42,204 bases of DNA from Actinomycetota bacterium (GTDB lineage Bacteria; Actinomycetota; Actinomycetes; S36-B12). A program made the position numbers and the translations under genes. Position 1 is the first letter of the stretch; each line of letters begins with the position of its first letter. Below, piece after piece: positions 11,459-18,588 of this stretch. The stretch covers positions 1 to 42,204 of the forward strand of contig CANFQC010000018.1 of the NCBI GenBank assembly GCA_947449035.1, in the 5' to 3' direction. The notes below the pieces were generated by a model that saw only the letters and a program-made list of their open reading frames with translations, was not told the DNA's origin and made no database searches.

Positions 11459-13510
11459 CTAGTCGGCCGCTGCCGGCAGCGTGGCGAGGACTCCTCTGAA
11501 CTTCTCTGCCAGTGCCTTGGATGCAGCGATGCTGATGTGTCCGTCATCGCGATACAGATACGTTCCGTCCAACTGAGTGGTGCACACGTCATCGGGGCAG
11601 AAGAAGTCACGTAGATCAATCAGCAGGGCACCATTGCGCGCAGCGACATCCTCGAACGCCTTCCGCGGTAGTGCCTCATTCTCATTGGCTTCAGCGAGCG
11701 GCATCTTCACCGCGAGATCGGCATGGGAGGCAATCCTCAGAGCCGAGAACTGGAGGGGATCAGACGTGAGCGGCTTGCTGAAATATGGAACGTCCTGCAC
11801 CAGCACTACCTGATGACCTGACGCTTGCAGCCTCTTCACGCTCGAGTCCAGGCCAGCGGTGAGAGCTTCTGCCTTTGCTGCGCGGTCACGAGTCAATGAG
11901 TGAGGCGTAGTTCCCGCAGAGAAGACTCGAGAGTTCCAGTAGATGCTCGACGAGGCAATGACCACGATTCCGGGAGGCTGCTTCTCCAGATAACTCAGGG
12001 TGTTCTCAACGAATGCTCGACAGGGGGAGCGAGGCGCCGAAGTCGACTTGAGATAGACGTCATAAAAGGGACACGAATTTGCGGTTGCCACACGCACGGG
12101 GTGTCCTGTCATCTCAGCGGCGGCGATGATTCCCTCGCCGAGATGGTCGGCATGCGAGTCACCGACGAGATACACGATTGAGCCCGGCGCATCGGCATTC
12201 CAGGTGCACGGTCGGGCTTTGGGAGAGTCGAATGGTCGAGACTCATTGCAACCAGCCGCATTTCCGATATGCATCGGAGTGACGCTGGCCGAGAAATCGC
12301 GGATGGTTGAGTTCCAGTAGCCATTATTCGCGGCACTGAGCAGGAGAAGTGAAAGCGCAATCGGTGGCACCAGTGCCAAGGTGATGATGCGCACCATTCG
12401 AGGCGTACTGACGTGACTCAGATTGCGAATCGGCTGCTCCACGAATCTGTACGAGAGAACCGCGGGAGCCAGTGACACGACAGCCGCGATGATGGCGATG
12501 CCCGAGACCGAGGGCCACAACAGCAACGCGAACACGATTAGTGGCCAGTGCCAGAGATACCAGGAATAAGAGATGTTGCCGACCGCCACGAACGGACGCG
12601 TCGAGAGAAGTCGACTGATCGGATTCTCGGCGGTGCCCGCGTAGAGCAGCAGCATGGTGCTGATCACGGGAAGGACGGTCATCGGCCCTGGCCACACGGT
12701 GTCGCCGTTGATCAGCCACATCGATACCAGAAGTCCGATAAGACCGAACGCGCCGAATATGAGAGCGAGGATCGGAGCCAGCATTCGAGTGCCACCGGCA
12801 ATGACAAGAGCCAGTAACGCCCCAGCCGCGAATTCCCAGACTCGAGTGACGGGTCCGTAGAAGCCGATGAGCCAGTGAGGCATGAAGGGAATTCGATGAC
12901 CGGTCGCCTGAGCCATCGCAATGGCGAATGAGATGGCTCCCACGAGAGCGACAATCGCGAACGGCGCAATTCGGCGCCCGTTCATTCGGCGCATGAGCAC
13001 CCAGCCGATGAAGAGAAGCAGCGGGAAAAGCAGGTAGAACTGCTCTTCGACAGATAGTGACCAGGTGTTCAGCAGTGGATTGGTAGCTGCGGGAGCATCA
13101 AAGTATCCGCCAGTGTTCTTGGCAATCACGATGTTGGCGGAGAGCAAGAGCGCTCCGATGCCCGTTTGCGCCGTGATCTGCTGAGCACCGAGCGGCGACT
13201 GAACTAGCGCCGCGATGACAATGACAACTAGGACGAGCACCGCAAGGGCTGGGGTGAGCCGTCTGAATCGACGGGCGTAGAAAGTGCGGAACCGTAATGT
13301 TCCAGTGCGCTGCCATTCGCGTGCGAGCATCGCAGTGATCACGAATCCGGAGATCACGAAGAACACATCAACGCCGGCGAATCCGCCGTGCACGCTCAAG
13401 CCTGCGTGGAAGCACACCACGACGAACACGGCGATGGCGCGAAGACCCTGGATGTCGAGGCGACGATTCGAACTCGACGCAGGCGGAATATTCGCCTGAA
13501 GAGTGGTCAC
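11459..13510 (-). CDS. OafA/YrhL-type membrane acyltransferase with C-terminal SGNH domain
   Basis: A 683-residue two-domain protein that would O-acylate a surface polysaccharide. The first ~380 residues are an acyltransferase-3 membrane domain with about eleven helices, including LDIQGLRAIAVFVVVCFH (His near residue 35), GGFAGVDVFFVISGFVI, and NTWSLSVEEQFYLLFP. The C-terminal ~250 residues are an extracytoplasmic SGNH domain with GDSHADHLGEG holding the nucleophilic Ser, and DDGHIS holding the catalytic Asp-His pair. The start is set to GTG 13510 because AGGAGG lies five bases upstream. ATG 13537 would add nine residues. It stands divergent from the sulfatase, within a likely envelope-polymer island. 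Confidence 0.93.
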   Translation of the reverse strand: MTTLQANIPPASSSNRRLDIQGLRAIAVFVVVCFHAGLSVHGGFAGVDVFFVISGFVITAMLAREWQRTGTLRFRTFYARRFRRLTPALAVLVLVVIVIAALVQSPLGAQQITAQTGIGALLLSANIVIAKNTGGYFDAPAATNPLLNTWSLSVEEQFYLLFPLLLFIGWVLMRRMNGRRIAPFAIVALVGAISFAIAMAQATGHRIPFMPHWLIGFYGPVTRVWEFAAGALLALVIAGGTRMLAPILALIFGAFGLIGLLVSMWLINGDTVWPGPMTVLPVISTMLLLYAGTAENPISRLLSTRPFVAVGNISYSWYLWHWPLIVFALLLWPSVSGIAIIAAVVSLAPAVLSYRFVEQPIRNLSHVSTPRMVRIITLALVPPIALSLLLLSAANNGYWNSTIRDFSASVTPMHIGNAAGCNESRPFDSPKARPCTWNADAPGSIVYLVGDSHADHLGEGIIAAAEMTGHPVRVATANSCPFYDVYLKSTSAPRSPCRAFVENTLSYLEKQPPGIVVIASSSIYWNSRVFSAGTTPHSLTRDRAAKAEALTAGLDSSVKRLQASGHQVVLVQDVPYFSKPLTSDPLQFSALRIASHADLAVKMPLAEANENEALPRKAFEDVAARNGALLIDLRDFFCPDDVCTTQLDGTYLYRDDGHISIAASKALAEKFRGVLATLPAAAD

Positions 13511-13654
13511 GAATCCTCCTGGAACACCATCCGACATCCGTGAGCATGGTGTCGTCAGCTCAGTCTATGGCTGAGGATTCCCACAGCAGCGATGGCGTAT
13601 TCTGGACTTTTCCGCTCGAAAGTGGCATCACCATCCAAGGAGTCTTACGACCAC

Positions 13655-15331
13655 ATGAATCGCACCCGCGTATCGGTTGTCGTAGCCTCGGCTCTCACGA
13701 TCCTGCTCATCCTCGGCCTTTTTGGCGCTCTCTCGGTCATTGTCGGTGGCAGGGCATCTGCGACAGCTGTTGACGACTCGGCCTCACCTGCAGCGACAGG
13801 CACGCTGATGCCGGTCCCTGGGGATGCCAGTACGGGGAATATTTCCGAGATCAAGAACGTCGTACTCCTGCTCGCCGATGATCTCGACTGGGCCACTTTC
13901 AACGAGGTGCCTCGGCTCAAGGCATTGATGGACAAGGGAACGACCCTGTCGAACTTCGTTGTGACCGACTCACTGTGCTGTCCATCGCGTACTTCGATAT
14001 TTCGAAGTCAGTTCGTGCACAACCACAAGGTGCTCTCGAATGTCCCGGAGACCGGTGGTGGGTGGAGCAAATTCAACTCACTGCACCTGCAGCGTGACTG
14101 CCTGCCAACCTGGCTCCAGTCCAACGGAGTCGCGACCTCGCTCGTGGGCAAGTACCTGAATGGTTTTCCAAAGGGTGCTCCCACTCCTAACTTCGTGCCC
14201 CCGGGGTTCACCAACTTCGTTACGTCGATCTCGCTCAATCAGTCCTACAAGGGCTACAACTACGTTCTTAATGAGAACGGAAAGCTGCGCAAGTACGGGA
14301 ACGCACCCGCTGATTACATCAATGACGTTCTGACGGCCCAAGCGACCAAGATCATCTCAACGTCAACGACACCATTTTTCCTCGAGTTCTCCTCGTACTC
14401 TCCGCATACTCCGGCCCCTGTTGCCCCGCGGAACCTCGGTTCGCATGCTGGGGCGCAGACACCGAGAACCCCGGCCTACAACTCCCGCGGTATTGACGAA
14501 CCCGCCTGGTTGCGTGCCTTGCCGACCCTTGGGCCGAAGCATCTCTCGAATCTGGACAACCTCTGGACCCGCCGACTCGAAGCAAGTGAGAGTGTTGCGG
14601 ATTCTTACGACGCGCTCACGGCCCAACTTGCCGCGTCGGGTCATGCACAAGACACCTTGATCATCGTCACCTCGGATAACGGTTACCACGTCGCAACACA
14701 TCGATTGGCGAGCGGAAAGCAGACGCCGTACCGCGAGGATTCCGTCGTGCCTGCCGTGCTCATTGGACCCGGTATCAAGGCAGGGGCCGTGATCAGTCAG
14801 ATGACGTCCACCATTGATCTTGCTCCCACGATCGCCCAGCTCCAAGGAGTTCAGCCGCCTGCCTGGATCGACGGACGCAGCTTGATTCCTCTCCTCGATG
14901 GCACGGTGGCACCCACCTGGCGCACTGGGATCCTTACGGAGAATCTTGCGCGAACCCGACCGGGTGATCCGGATTTCGGTGTATTCGAGGCACCCAAGTT
15001 CCGGGCATTGCGTACGCAGTCATGGCTGTACGTCGAATACGCAGATCGAAACGTTCAGCTCATCGATCTTGTCAATGATCCCTTTGAGGTCAACAATGTC
15101 GCCCGCACGACTGATCCTTCGATCGTGGCGCAATTGAAAGCACAGCTTGCGGCGTTGAGTACATGCGCCGGACCGTCGTGCCTCGTTGCGGACAGCATGC
15201 CCGTGCCTCCGGCTCAGATTGAGGACACACCGACCGAGACCGTGATGCCAGGAAGCTCCGCATCGCCTTCGGGGTCGCCATCAGCGTCGGTGACTCCGAG
15301 CGCTATCGCGTCAGCATCACCTGTCGGATGA
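13655..15331 (+). CDS. Membrane-anchored or secreted sulfatase
   Basis: A type I sulfatase of 558 residues. The N-terminus (RVSVVVASALTILLILGLFG) is a signal anchor or signal peptide, so the enzyme works outside the membrane. KNVVLLLADDLDW holds the first metal-binding Asp pair. DSLCCPSRTSIF contains the CxPSR signature, where Cys108 would be converted to formylglycine by a separate enzyme not found here. SDNGYH and GKQTPYRE carry other active-site residues. The C-terminal tail after about residue 515 is a flexible Pro/Ser/Ala/Thr-rich stretch. AAGGAG lies 12 bases before the ATG, and TATTCT at 13598-13603 is a possible -10. Its last 29 bases overlap the end of the opposite gene. Substrate unknown; the nearby sulfotransferase suggests a sulfated polymer. 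Confidence 0.92.
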   Translation: MNRTRVSVVVASALTILLILGLFGALSVIVGGRASATAVDDSASPAATGTLMPVPGDASTGNISEIKNVVLLLADDLDWATFNEVPRLKALMDKGTTLSNFVVTDSLCCPSRTSIFRSQFVHNHKVLSNVPETGGGWSKFNSLHLQRDCLPTWLQSNGVATSLVGKYLNGFPKGAPTPNFVPPGFTNFVTSISLNQSYKGYNYVLNENGKLRKYGNAPADYINDVLTAQATKIISTSTTPFFLEFSSYSPHTPAPVAPRNLGSHAGAQTPRTPAYNSRGIDEPAWLRALPTLGPKHLSNLDNLWTRRLEASESVADSYDALTAQLAASGHAQDTLIIVTSDNGYHVATHRLASGKQTPYREDSVVPAVLIGPGIKAGAVISQMTSTIDLAPTIAQLQGVQPPAWIDGRSLIPLLDGTVAPTWRTGILTENLARTRPGDPDFGVFEAPKFRALRTQSWLYVEYADRNVQLIDLVNDPFEVNNVARTTDPSIVAQLKAQLAALSTCAGPSCLVADSMPVPPAQIEDTPTETVMPGSSASPSGSPSASVTPSAIASASPVG

Positions 15332-17552
15332 CATTTTCCGCAGCGTGACCGTCGTCAAATGCGCAGAAGCGTTGGCGGAAATCAGACAGAAGCTCACGTG
15401 ACTTTTCGTTCTCGTACAGATGGTCGACCAGGATTTCCGTCAGCTGCTCCTGGTTATTGGCAACTGCCCCCGGTGGCTGGGCGAGAAGGTCGAAGTACGT
15501 GCCGCGTGACTCGCGGTAGGCAGCCCAATCATCGGCGTAGATGATGATCGGCTTATCCAAGATCGCAAAGTCGAACATCACTGACGAGTAGTCGGTGATG
15601 AGAATGTCAGCGGCCAAGTAGCAATCGATGATCGACGGCAGCCGCGAACCATTGATGAGACGCCCTTCACTCTCAAGCCGATCGACCGCCGGGCCGAGAG
15701 AGGTGGTGTGGTGAGCGCGCACAAGTAGAACGAAGTTGTCAGGCAGCTTGGCAATTAAGGTTTCGAGCTCCAGACGCAATGAGGTGTCGCCCGCTGACTC
15801 GCGGAATGTGGGGGCGTAGAGCACCAGCGTGCTTTCGGGACTGACTCCGAGTGCCTCGCGGCATCGCACCATGTCAGTCGGCGTTGCCCGTACGAGGACG
15901 TCGTTGCGCGGGTATCCGAACTCAAGCCAGGAGTATGAGCAGGGGTAGGCGTGACTCCACATCTCCGTCGAATAGGCATTGGAACTCAACGCGTAATCCC
16001 AGCGATCACTTCGACGAAGCAGGTCAACGAACTCCTGCCGGGTTCGCGCAGCATCCTGAGCGACGACCTGGCCGTTCTGCCGAGGCGTAACGCGATTCGG
16101 ATCGACAGCTGTACCGGCGACTGCGCTTCCCATGACGTCAAGACCGCAGAACTTCAACGGCGTTCCGTGCATGGTCTGGATGTGCACCTGACCTGGACGC
16201 TTCACATACGCGCCAGGGAAGTTCACGTTATTGACAAAGTACTTGGCGCGGGCAAACGCGGCCCACTGTTTGATCCCGTTGGGTGCGATGGCCTTGACGC
16301 CAGTCGGCAGCAACGCCTGCTTGCCCTTGTCGAGAATCCAGACCGCCCGGAGGTCCGGGGCGATGCGCTGCATCTCTTCGAAGATCGCCCGTGGGTTGCA
16401 GCCGAAGCCGGTACCCCAGTACTCGGAAAACACCACGAGCTTCGGATCGATCGGAAGAAGCCGCATGAAGCCGTAGTAGAGGCGTCCGACTGCGCGAACC
16501 TTGCGGACCGCACGCCTTACGGGCCAGTAGATCTTCCCGAGGCGACGTCGGGTGGGAACGCGGCGCACATCAACCCAGCTGTAGGCGGCAAAGACTCGAT
16601 ATCCGTGCTCACGAAAGAGTCGACCGCGGATATTGCTGGGCAGGTTGCTGTTCTGCGACTCATCAGATGCGGGGAAGTACCGCTTCGCGAGAACAGCCCC
16701 CTGCTCGAAGAAGCGCTTCTTATCGCGCTTGGCCAATCGCCCCTTGTTCTGCAGGATCGTCACGAAGTGATTGATCATGATGTCGTAGAGGTGCTTGCGG
16801 GTGCGAGGGTCAATTCCGATTCGATCAGCCTCGGCGAAGACGAGTTCATACTGCGCGAAGACATCGAAATGCTTCGGGCTCGTGCTGGACAGAATGCTGC
16901 CGCCCTCACGCCGCTGGCGATAGAGAAGTACCACGCGGTTCAGGGTCACGGCTGTAGCGGCGTTCAGGAGAACTGTGTAGGTGAAGGAGATGTCCTCGTA
17001 GAAACCAGTACGGAATTGCACACCGAGCCGCTCAAGGAAGTCGCGACGGTAGGCCTTGTTGCAGGCAATCGGAAGGAGATTGAAGAGCTTGAGATGATCG
17101 CGAGGCGCGAACACCGTGGGAGACAGACGCGCGAGCAACTCGGCTCCCCAGCTCACCGCCTGCTTTCCGTCCCACCACACGCGCGAGTAGTTGTAGATCA
17201 GCATCTCAGGGCGAGCATTCACTTCAAGCTTTTCCGAGATGGCGCGAAGCGAGCCCGGTGCGAAAGTGTCGTCGCCATCGAGGAAGAGCACGTAGTCGCC
17301 AGTGGCAGCGGCAACACCGGCATTTCGAGCAAGTCCGAGGCCGACATTCTGTGTGAGGTGGAGAGGCTTGATGCGTGAATCGTGCCGCGCCATCTCGTCG
17401 GCTATGTCTCCGCTGTGATCTGGTGAGCAATCGTCGACGATGATGATTTCGTAATCGTCGAAATCCTGATTCAGGACTGAAGTGATGCATTCGCGCAAGT
17501 AGGACTGGACGTTATAGATCGGCACGATGATCGAGAAGAACGCCACGGACAT
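15303..17552 (-). CDS. GT2 glycosyltransferase fused to CDP-glycerol glycerophosphotransferase (TagF-like)
   Basis: A 749-residue fusion. Residues 1-230 are a GT-A family 2 glycosyltransferase: FSIIVPIYNVQSYL, EIIIVDDCSPDHS, GLARNAG and the metal-binding DxD in YVLFLDGDDTF. From about residue 370 the protein is a TagB/TagF-type domain that transfers glycerol- or polyol-phosphate units: VFSEYWGTGFGCNPRAIFEE, IQTMHGTPLKF, VLYAPTFRES, and ILITDYSSVMFDF. Such proteins build teichoic-acid-like or glycosylated phosphopolymer chains on the cytoplasmic side. The stop overlaps the sulfatase tail by 29 bases. ATG 17552 is used, but a TATCCT box at 17554-17559 lies seven bases before GTG 17546, so a leaderless start two codons later is possible. 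Confidence 0.9.
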   Translation of the reverse strand: MSVAFFSIIVPIYNVQSYLRECITSVLNQDFDDYEIIIVDDCSPDHSGDIADEMARHDSRIKPLHLTQNVGLGLARNAGVAAATGDYVLFLDGDDTFAPGSLRAISEKLEVNARPEMLIYNYSRVWWDGKQAVSWGAELLARLSPTVFAPRDHLKLFNLLPIACNKAYRRDFLERLGVQFRTGFYEDISFTYTVLLNAATAVTLNRVVLLYRQRREGGSILSSTSPKHFDVFAQYELVFAEADRIGIDPRTRKHLYDIMINHFVTILQNKGRLAKRDKKRFFEQGAVLAKRYFPASDESQNSNLPSNIRGRLFREHGYRVFAAYSWVDVRRVPTRRRLGKIYWPVRRAVRKVRAVGRLYYGFMRLLPIDPKLVVFSEYWGTGFGCNPRAIFEEMQRIAPDLRAVWILDKGKQALLPTGVKAIAPNGIKQWAAFARAKYFVNNVNFPGAYVKRPGQVHIQTMHGTPLKFCGLDVMGSAVAGTAVDPNRVTPRQNGQVVAQDAARTRQEFVDLLRRSDRWDYALSSNAYSTEMWSHAYPCSYSWLEFGYPRNDVLVRATPTDMVRCREALGVSPESTLVLYAPTFRESAGDTSLRLELETLIAKLPDNFVLLVRAHHTTSLGPAVDRLESEGRLINGSRLPSIIDCYLAADILITDYSSVMFDFAILDKPIIIYADDWAAYRESRGTYFDLLAQPPGAVANNQEQLTEILVDHLYENEKSRELLSDFRQRFCAFDDGHAAENVIRQVMLTR

Positions 17553-17621
17553 GAGGATACAGGCCGGTGATTAGCGCGGAATCGCAGGAAACGCCTCACG
17601 ATCGCATTCATGGCGCTGTAG

Positions 17622-17627
17622 TAGGGT
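17622..17627 (+). promoter_or_regulatory. -10 box of leaderless sulfotransferase mRNA
   Basis: TAGGGT, followed by six bases and then GTG 17634. The same hexamer with the same spacing precedes pyrE, etfD and the MFS gene. Confidence 0.55.
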
Positions 17628-17633
17628 TTTCGA

Positions 17634-18530
17634 GTGACTTCTTCTGCGAACGATTGCCTGAATCCCATTCTCGTTGGCGGCACCGGTCGTAGCGGATCCA
17701 CCATCTTGGGCCGCCTTCTAGGGCAGCACCCCGATCTCCTCTTAACTAACCCCGAGGAAGTTCGCTTCATCGCGAACGACCACGGCATGGCCGAGGCCCT
17801 TGCTATGAAGCTTGGCCCGTGGCCGCGCCGCATGCGCGCGAAGCGTGAGGCCAAGCTGGCCGTCCAGCGCACCAAGGGCCTGTGGTATTTCCGCAATAAG
17901 AAGACCGGTCTGCATACGTCTATGACTCTCGAGGAGATCGACGAGTTCGCGGCCCCTTACCTTTCGCAATTCAACGGAACGCCGATTGAGGCGACACAGG
18001 GTTTTGTCTACGCAGTCATGGCGAAGATCACCGCGGGCCTTGACGGTCGTCGCTGGGTCGATGGCACGCCCGCAAACGCGCGCATTACTGACTTCATCGA
18101 ACCGATCTACCCCGACTGCCAGGTCGTGGCCATGATTCGCGATGGTCGCGATGTCGCTGCCTCATTCGTTGCGCAGAAGTTCGGACCGACCGAGATCTTT
18201 GCCTCCCTTCGCCAGTGGGAGACCCGCATGCTGCGCATGCGCCAGGCCGAGCTCGCCTGCGCACCCGGCCGAATCCTGACCATCGACATGCTCAACCTGG
18301 TCGATGTCGATCGCGACGGAACGCTTCAGCGGATCTGCGACTTCCTGAACCTGCCGATTACCCCCGAGTTCCGCACTTGGTTCAACGAGAACGTTCGCCT
18401 CGAAGACGCCAACGTCGGGCGCTGGCGTACCCAGTTCGATGACGAGACCGTGAAGAAGATCGATTCGGTGTACGCCGAGATGGTCGAGCGCGTTGCAGCG
18501 TCGGGCGCTCAGATCCCGCTGCCGTCCTGA
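17634..18530 (+). CDS. PAPS-dependent sulfotransferase family protein
   Basis: The 298-residue protein has the two PAPS-binding motifs of the sulfotransferase family. The 5'-phosphosulfate loop is VGGTGRSGSTILGRLL (residues 14-29) and the 3'-phosphate motif is AMIRDGRDVAASF (about residues 164-176). There is no signal peptide or membrane segment, so it acts in the cytoplasm, transferring sulfate to a sugar, lipid or polymer unit. It stands divergent from the GT2-TagF fusion, with 81 bases between them, and near a sulfatase. GTG 17634 is supported by TAGGGT six bases upstream. A strong bidirectional terminator follows the stop codon. Confidence 0.9.
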   Translation: MTSSANDCLNPILVGGTGRSGSTILGRLLGQHPDLLLTNPEEVRFIANDHGMAEALAMKLGPWPRRMRAKREAKLAVQRTKGLWYFRNKKTGLHTSMTLEEIDEFAAPYLSQFNGTPIEATQGFVYAVMAKITAGLDGRRWVDGTPANARITDFIEPIYPDCQVVAMIRDGRDVAASFVAQKFGPTEIFASLRQWETRMLRMRQAELACAPGRILTIDMLNLVDVDRDGTLQRICDFLNLPITPEFRTWFNENVRLEDANVGRWRTQFDDETVKKIDSVYAEMVERVAASGAQIPLPS

Positions 18531-18546
18531 TCACCGAGTCCTCATG

Positions 18547-18578
18547 ACGAAAGGCCCCGCACAGGCGGGGCCTTTCGT
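18547..18578. terminator. Bidirectional terminator
   Basis: A perfect 14-bp stem, ACGAAAGGCCCCGC (18547-18560) with its complement at 18565-18578, and loop ACAG. A/T-rich sides (AAA and TTT) fall within the stem. It lies between the sulfotransferase and etfD, whose 3' ends face each other. Confidence 0.9.
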
Positions 18579-18588
18579 ATAAGCGGGA

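Follow-up and report, generated by a model that had tools for sequence, protein, structure and literature searches.

Closest described systems

Wall teichoic acid loci of Bacillus and Staphylococcus share with the locus described here a full-length TagF polymerase with its catalytic histidine, and with the locus's relatives a TagH-like ABC-2 exporter. Streptomyces-like actinobacteria with large genomes carry the same TagF, often in tandem and in some cases with TagGH-like genes nearby. The carbohydrate sulfatases of family S1_11 and neighbouring families (BT4656, BuS1_11) have the fold, the metal and sulfate residues and the CxPSR motif in common with the sulfatase of the locus, and Mycobacterium tuberculosis STF1, the tyrosylprotein sulfotransferases and the curacin sulfotransferase domain resemble its sulfotransferase in fold and PAPS-binding motifs.

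The locus departs from each of these systems. Unlike in the Bacillus and Staphylococcus teichoic loci, TagF is fixed between a sulfotransferase gene and a sulfatase gene and no TagD was found in the genomes that carry it, while the TagF stretches fetched from Streptomyces-like actinobacteria contained no homologue of its sulfotransferase, sulfatase or acyltransferase. Unlike the S1_11 sulfatases, its sulfatase is anchored or exported, belongs to a biosynthetic module and occurs in genomes in which, except for one carrier (G021), no known maturation enzyme was found. The sulfotransferase is only about 14–20% identical to STF1, the tyrosylprotein sulfotransferases and the curacin domain.

The locus and its genome

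The locus lies in a 42,204-nucleotide stretch of DNA (hereafter the window), which is contig C18 of genome G000, an assembly of 2.36 Mb that is 97.7% complete and, among named genomes, is closest to metagenome-assembled genomes of freshwater Nanopelagicales. All four genes named in the first-pass annotation were recovered at the expected positions and matched the named Pfam families well above cut-off (Table 1). The gene ends of TagF and the sulfatase overlap by 29 bases, and since orientations alternate along the locus, the four genes do not form one operon. Beyond the sulfotransferase, a GC-rich inverted repeat at window positions 18531-18588 (AAAGGCCCCGCACAGGCGGGGCCTTT) separates it from the next, convergent gene and looks like a shared terminator.

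Table 1. Genes and intergenic regions of the locus in window coordinates
Feature	Position	Strand	Evidence
OafA-type AT3-SGNH acyltransferase	11459..13537	-	PF01757 5e-26 + PF19040 1.1e-41
Divergent intergenic region between acyltransferase and sulfatase (54 bases)	13538..13591	.	Coordinates
S1-type sulfatase with N-terminal membrane anchor or signal peptide	13592..15331	+	PF00884 1.2e-40
TagF-type polymerase (GT2-like N-terminal part + Glyphos_transf GT-B part)	15303..17552	-	PF04464 7.8e-106
Divergent intergenic region between TagF and sulfotransferase (81 bases), possible shared promoter region	17553..17633	.	Coordinates; divergence kept in orthologous loci
PAPS-dependent sulfotransferase, Sulfotransfer_3 family	17634..18530	+	PF13469 2.5e-23

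A conserved triplet of sulfotransferase, TagF and sulfatase

Orthologues of TagF with 58–70% identity were found in 20 other Nanopelagicales loci (L031-L050). Searching these loci by tblastn with the window's proteins placed the sulfotransferase on one side of TagF in 18 and the sulfatase on its other side in 19, and where either was missing (L037, L050 and L039) the contig ended at that point. As far as the contigs reach, adjacency and orientation are thus the same in all 20, with sulfotransferase and TagF divergent and TagF and sulfatase convergent in every locus; this count includes L047 and L049, which are broken by apparent frameshifts and were scored as present from tblastn pieces. Genes in the relatives' loci are simple ORF calls, the start positions of which may be wrong. 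Many of the loci have no neighbour in common with the window except the triplet, which therefore travels or persists as a unit.

Plain chance adjacency of the three genes is ruled out by these 20 loci, and we consider it nearly certain that sulfotransferase, TagF and sulfatase form a functional module. The proposal that all four genes recur together in other genomes held for these three. The acyltransferase, an AT3 domain fused to an SGNH domain with visible GDSH and DDGH segments, has orthologues of 58–62% identity adjoining the sulfatase in five loci (L032-L035 and L046). In L042 and L043, the sulfatase is followed by a P-loop protein and then by an acyltransferase that is more distantly related. 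It is an optional, lineage-specific component outside the conserved core.

Among 35 genomes of the family, TagF orthologues, full-length or cut by contig ends, were found in 11, and all 11 of these carriers also had the module-type sulfotransferase and the module-type sulfatase. The remaining 24 genomes had neither TagF nor a module-type sulfotransferase; in G025, which is among these, a module-like sulfatase stands at the edge of a contig, so that an assembly gap may hide a further carrier. The association of the three genes is almost perfect in this sample (Fisher p about 1e-8, uncorrected for shared ancestry). In maximum-likelihood trees, the module sulfotransferases formed one clade (support 100/100). 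The module sulfatases also formed one, which took in just one additional paralogue, that of carrier G021, and both clades were separate from the unlinked relatives of these enzymes in TagF-less genomes. Such diverged sulfotransferases and sulfatases occur at separate places in many TagF-less family genomes, the former beside a CrtO-like FAD oxidoreductase in 9 of the 20 loci fetched, the latter near genes of cystathionine-lyase and CBS type; G006 has both sulfatase types. The occurrence of unlinked relatives in genomes that lack TagF suggests that each enzyme had an older role that was not tied to the polymer.

TagF and the question of the backbone

Residues 7-740 of TagF align with the solved Staphylococcus epidermidis TagF (3l7i) over the whole length (E 3.6e-61), and the catalytic histidine of HGTPLK is kept (IQTMHGTPLK), a position at which the 3l7j sequence has asparagine. 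The same architecture was found at 40–47% identity in large-genome actinobacteria (7–10 Mb, Streptomyces-like). The full-length alignment and this wider occurrence ruled out the reading of the gene as an unusual GT2-TagF fusion.

A glycerol-phosphate backbone, one of the options named in the first-pass annotation, was not supported. The glycerol-3-phosphate cytidylyltransferase TagD (TIGR01518) was found neither in the window's genome nor in any carrier, so such a backbone is unproven. Three CTP_transf_like proteins of the window's genome were considered as a hidden TagD and read by sequence as CoaD, NadD and RibF. The genome has one true IspD, and a second IspD match, considered as TarI, was weak in each genome and is probably GlmU-like.

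Outside the module, the window's genome encodes a second TagF-type protein, larger at 917 aa, next to GT2 and GT4 genes (L120:8657-11410, contig C7). In a distant actinobacterium (G444, L222:1633-14459), TagF lies between two Sulfotransfer_3 genes with TagGH-like ABC-2 exporter genes beyond them, and an NTP transferase gene and a gene for a protein close to sn-glycerol-1-phosphate dehydrogenase stand near TagF, a possible TagD-free donor route.

Sulfotransferase and PAPS supply

The PAPS-binding motifs of the sulfotransferase (5'-phosphosulfate loop and 3'-phosphate motif; GGTGRSGST and RDGRDVAASF) were invariant in 15 orthologues. Its structure model had a pLDDT of 88.9, and the top-ranked matches of this model were sulfotransferases throughout. 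The window's genome has genes for PAPS synthesis, for which the first-pass annotation had proposed a search: CysD and a fused CysNC on contig C2, so that PAPS can be made there; sulfite-reductase type genes are also present. Five carriers (G004, G006, G016, G026 and G034) have an APS kinase and gave no NIR_SIR match, which indicates a non-assimilatory use of PAPS in these genomes and argues for sulfation.

The sulfatase and its maturation

The sulfatase consists of Sulfatase and SGSH_C domains (Pfam), and residues D96, D97, C129, P131, S132, R133, K187, H272, D362, N363 and K376 were invariant in 19 orthologues. The predicted catalytic Cys129 lies in a CCPSR segment, of which Cys-x-Pro-Ser-Arg is invariant. 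In Foldseek, the sulfatase model matched 6-O-sulfatases of family S1_11 at the top ranks and phosphonate monoester hydrolases at lower ones, matches that we take as supportive only, given that the model was of modest confidence (mean pLDDT 62.8, below 50 in the Cys129 segment). The GKYLN and VHNH segments of the sulfatase are suggestive of animal glucosamine-6-sulfatases.

The lack of formylglycine-generating enzyme had been named beforehand as an observation that would count against a joint function, and no such enzyme (PF03781) was found in the window's genome or in any carrier. The PF03781 match in carrier G018 is actually EgtB, and a tandem pair in the non-carrier G010 weakly matched EgtB, SenA and GldK models and is not clearly a formylglycine-generating enzyme. 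The anaerobic enzyme anSME (TIGR03942) scored above cut-off in one carrier only, G021. Because the formylglycine-generating enzyme is absent from several independently assembled genomes, assembly gaps are an unlikely explanation. Since the sulfatase motif is invariant, this absence does not dissolve the module and shifts the question to how the sulfatase is matured. With neither enzyme found in the carriers other than G021, the sulfatase might act without the modification, and slowly. Slow turnover persists in a choline sulfatase whose cysteine is unmodified, and Escherichia coli reportedly modifies cysteine-type sulfatases by machinery that had not been identified at that time (PMC6189696).

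Contig C1 of the window's genome, in which neither the formylglycine-generating enzyme nor anSME was found, encodes another protein of the sulfatase superfamily (L182:7121-8683), with the motif CMPNR. The maturation gap is therefore not peculiar to the module.

Exporters and other neighbours

Genes with ABC_tran and ABC2_membrane domains lie beside the sulfotransferase in L032-L034 and L046 and beyond the acyltransferase in L035, and in the short L031 only the exporter ATPase was called. One ATPase of this exporter group was best matched by galactan exporter and TagH models. GT4, ABC2_membrane and ABC-type ATPase genes adjoin the sulfotransferase in L038 and L039, and in part in L036, L042, L043 and L044; the ATPases of these GT4-bearing loci (including L042 and L044) have no recognisable Walker A lysine. 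The window has no exporter beside the module, and a candidate ABC-2 exporter is found unlinked on contig C43 of its genome.

In 8 of the 20 loci (L036-L038, L041-L043, L048 and L050), the sulfatase is adjoined by a P-loop protein with an HKTGTT motif. The one member scanned had no Pfam match; the motif is sulfotransferase-like, and the protein is probably a second sulfotransferase.

Proposed function and alternatives

The most economical reading, and on balance a probable one, is that the locus is a conserved module whose enzymes share one substrate, a sulfated surface polymer of the teichoic type. In the cytoplasm, TagF would lengthen a chain of alditol phosphate, or of a related phosphodiester, on a primer that is lipid-linked or a glycan, and the sulfotransferase would place sulfate from PAPS on this chain or on sugars attached to it. 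Export of the polymer would fall to an ABC-2 transporter of the TagGH/Wzt kind, whose genes adjoin the module in relatives and probably lie at another place in the window's genome. Outside the cell, the anchored or exported sulfatase would then remove or edit polymer sulfate, trimming the polymer rather than scavenging, and in the window's lineage the OafA-SGNH enzyme would acylate it. In favour of this reading are the strict linkage in the 20 loci, the joint presence of the three genes in 11 of 35 genomes, their module-specific clades, the exporter genes beside the module in relatives, the gene arrangement in L222, and the PAPS supply, with APS kinase but no NIR_SIR match in five carriers. 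Against it stand the missing TagD and formylglycine-generating enzyme (with anSME in G021 only), the unlinked sulfotransferases and sulfatases in genomes that lack TagF, the lack of an adjacent exporter in the window, and the place of the acyltransferase outside the conserved core.

The missing TagD and the single true IspD would also fit a product outside the teichoic class. The TagF-related enzyme would in that case build a capsule or exopolysaccharide with a donor different from CDP-glycerol, yielding a phosphodiester-linked polysaccharide on which the sulfotransferase would act. TagF-like domains do occur in capsule polymerases such as Cps3D and in transporter-dependent capsules of E. coli (PMC13171606), and some relatives have GT4 and ABC-2 genes next to the module. 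However, the whole TagF chain aligns best with TagF and not with capsule polymerases, and the possible donor route of sn-glycerol-1-phosphate dehydrogenase and NTP transferase stands near TagF in L222 and in part in L212 and L223. We consider this explanation rather unlikely.

The assignment of the sulfatase to the same pathway can be questioned on its own, as PehA and phosphonate monoester hydrolases were among its closest matches and, in relatives without TagF, the other sulfatase clade is found next to sulfur amino acid genes. It could accordingly be a scavenger or a phosphodiesterase unrelated to the product of the sulfotransferase, with the linkage reflecting shared regulation or a mobile island of surface genes. 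The strict linkage to TagF and the sulfotransferase in several contexts, the separate clade of module-type sulfatases and the first rank of carbohydrate 6-O-sulfatases in Foldseek, albeit from the model with a pLDDT of 62.8, make this improbable. That the genes came together by chance in a hot spot of surface genes and share no function, as the alternating orientations and the optional acyltransferase might suggest, is largely refuted by the 20 loci, in which adjacency is kept at 52–70% protein identity while the neighbours change, and is very improbable.

In the searchable literature, we found no account of a wall polymer of the teichoic type that carries sulfate, and a search combining teichoic, sulfotransferase, sulfatase and Actinobacteria returned no relevant description. 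We tentatively raise the possibility that freshwater actinobacteria make an undescribed class of sulfated teichoic-type polymer from a donor that does not require TagD, the sulfatase cysteine being matured by a system yet to be recognised or left unmodified. For bacteria that live in fresh water, as these do, surface charge influences how phages attach, how cells are grazed and how nutrients are bound. The carriers also provide a clean test case for sulfatase maturation, as they combine a strictly conserved cysteine-type sulfatase with neither known formylglycine enzyme (except for anSME in G021); a gap in the known formylglycine enzymes was also noted for E. coli (PMC6189696).

The window's genome further contains a likely second sulfation locus on contig C43 (L121:14082-16456), where an APS-kinase-like domain fused to a methyltransferase is immediately followed by a Sulfotransfer_3 gene, and this locus adjoins an ABC-2 exporter and glycosyltransferases.
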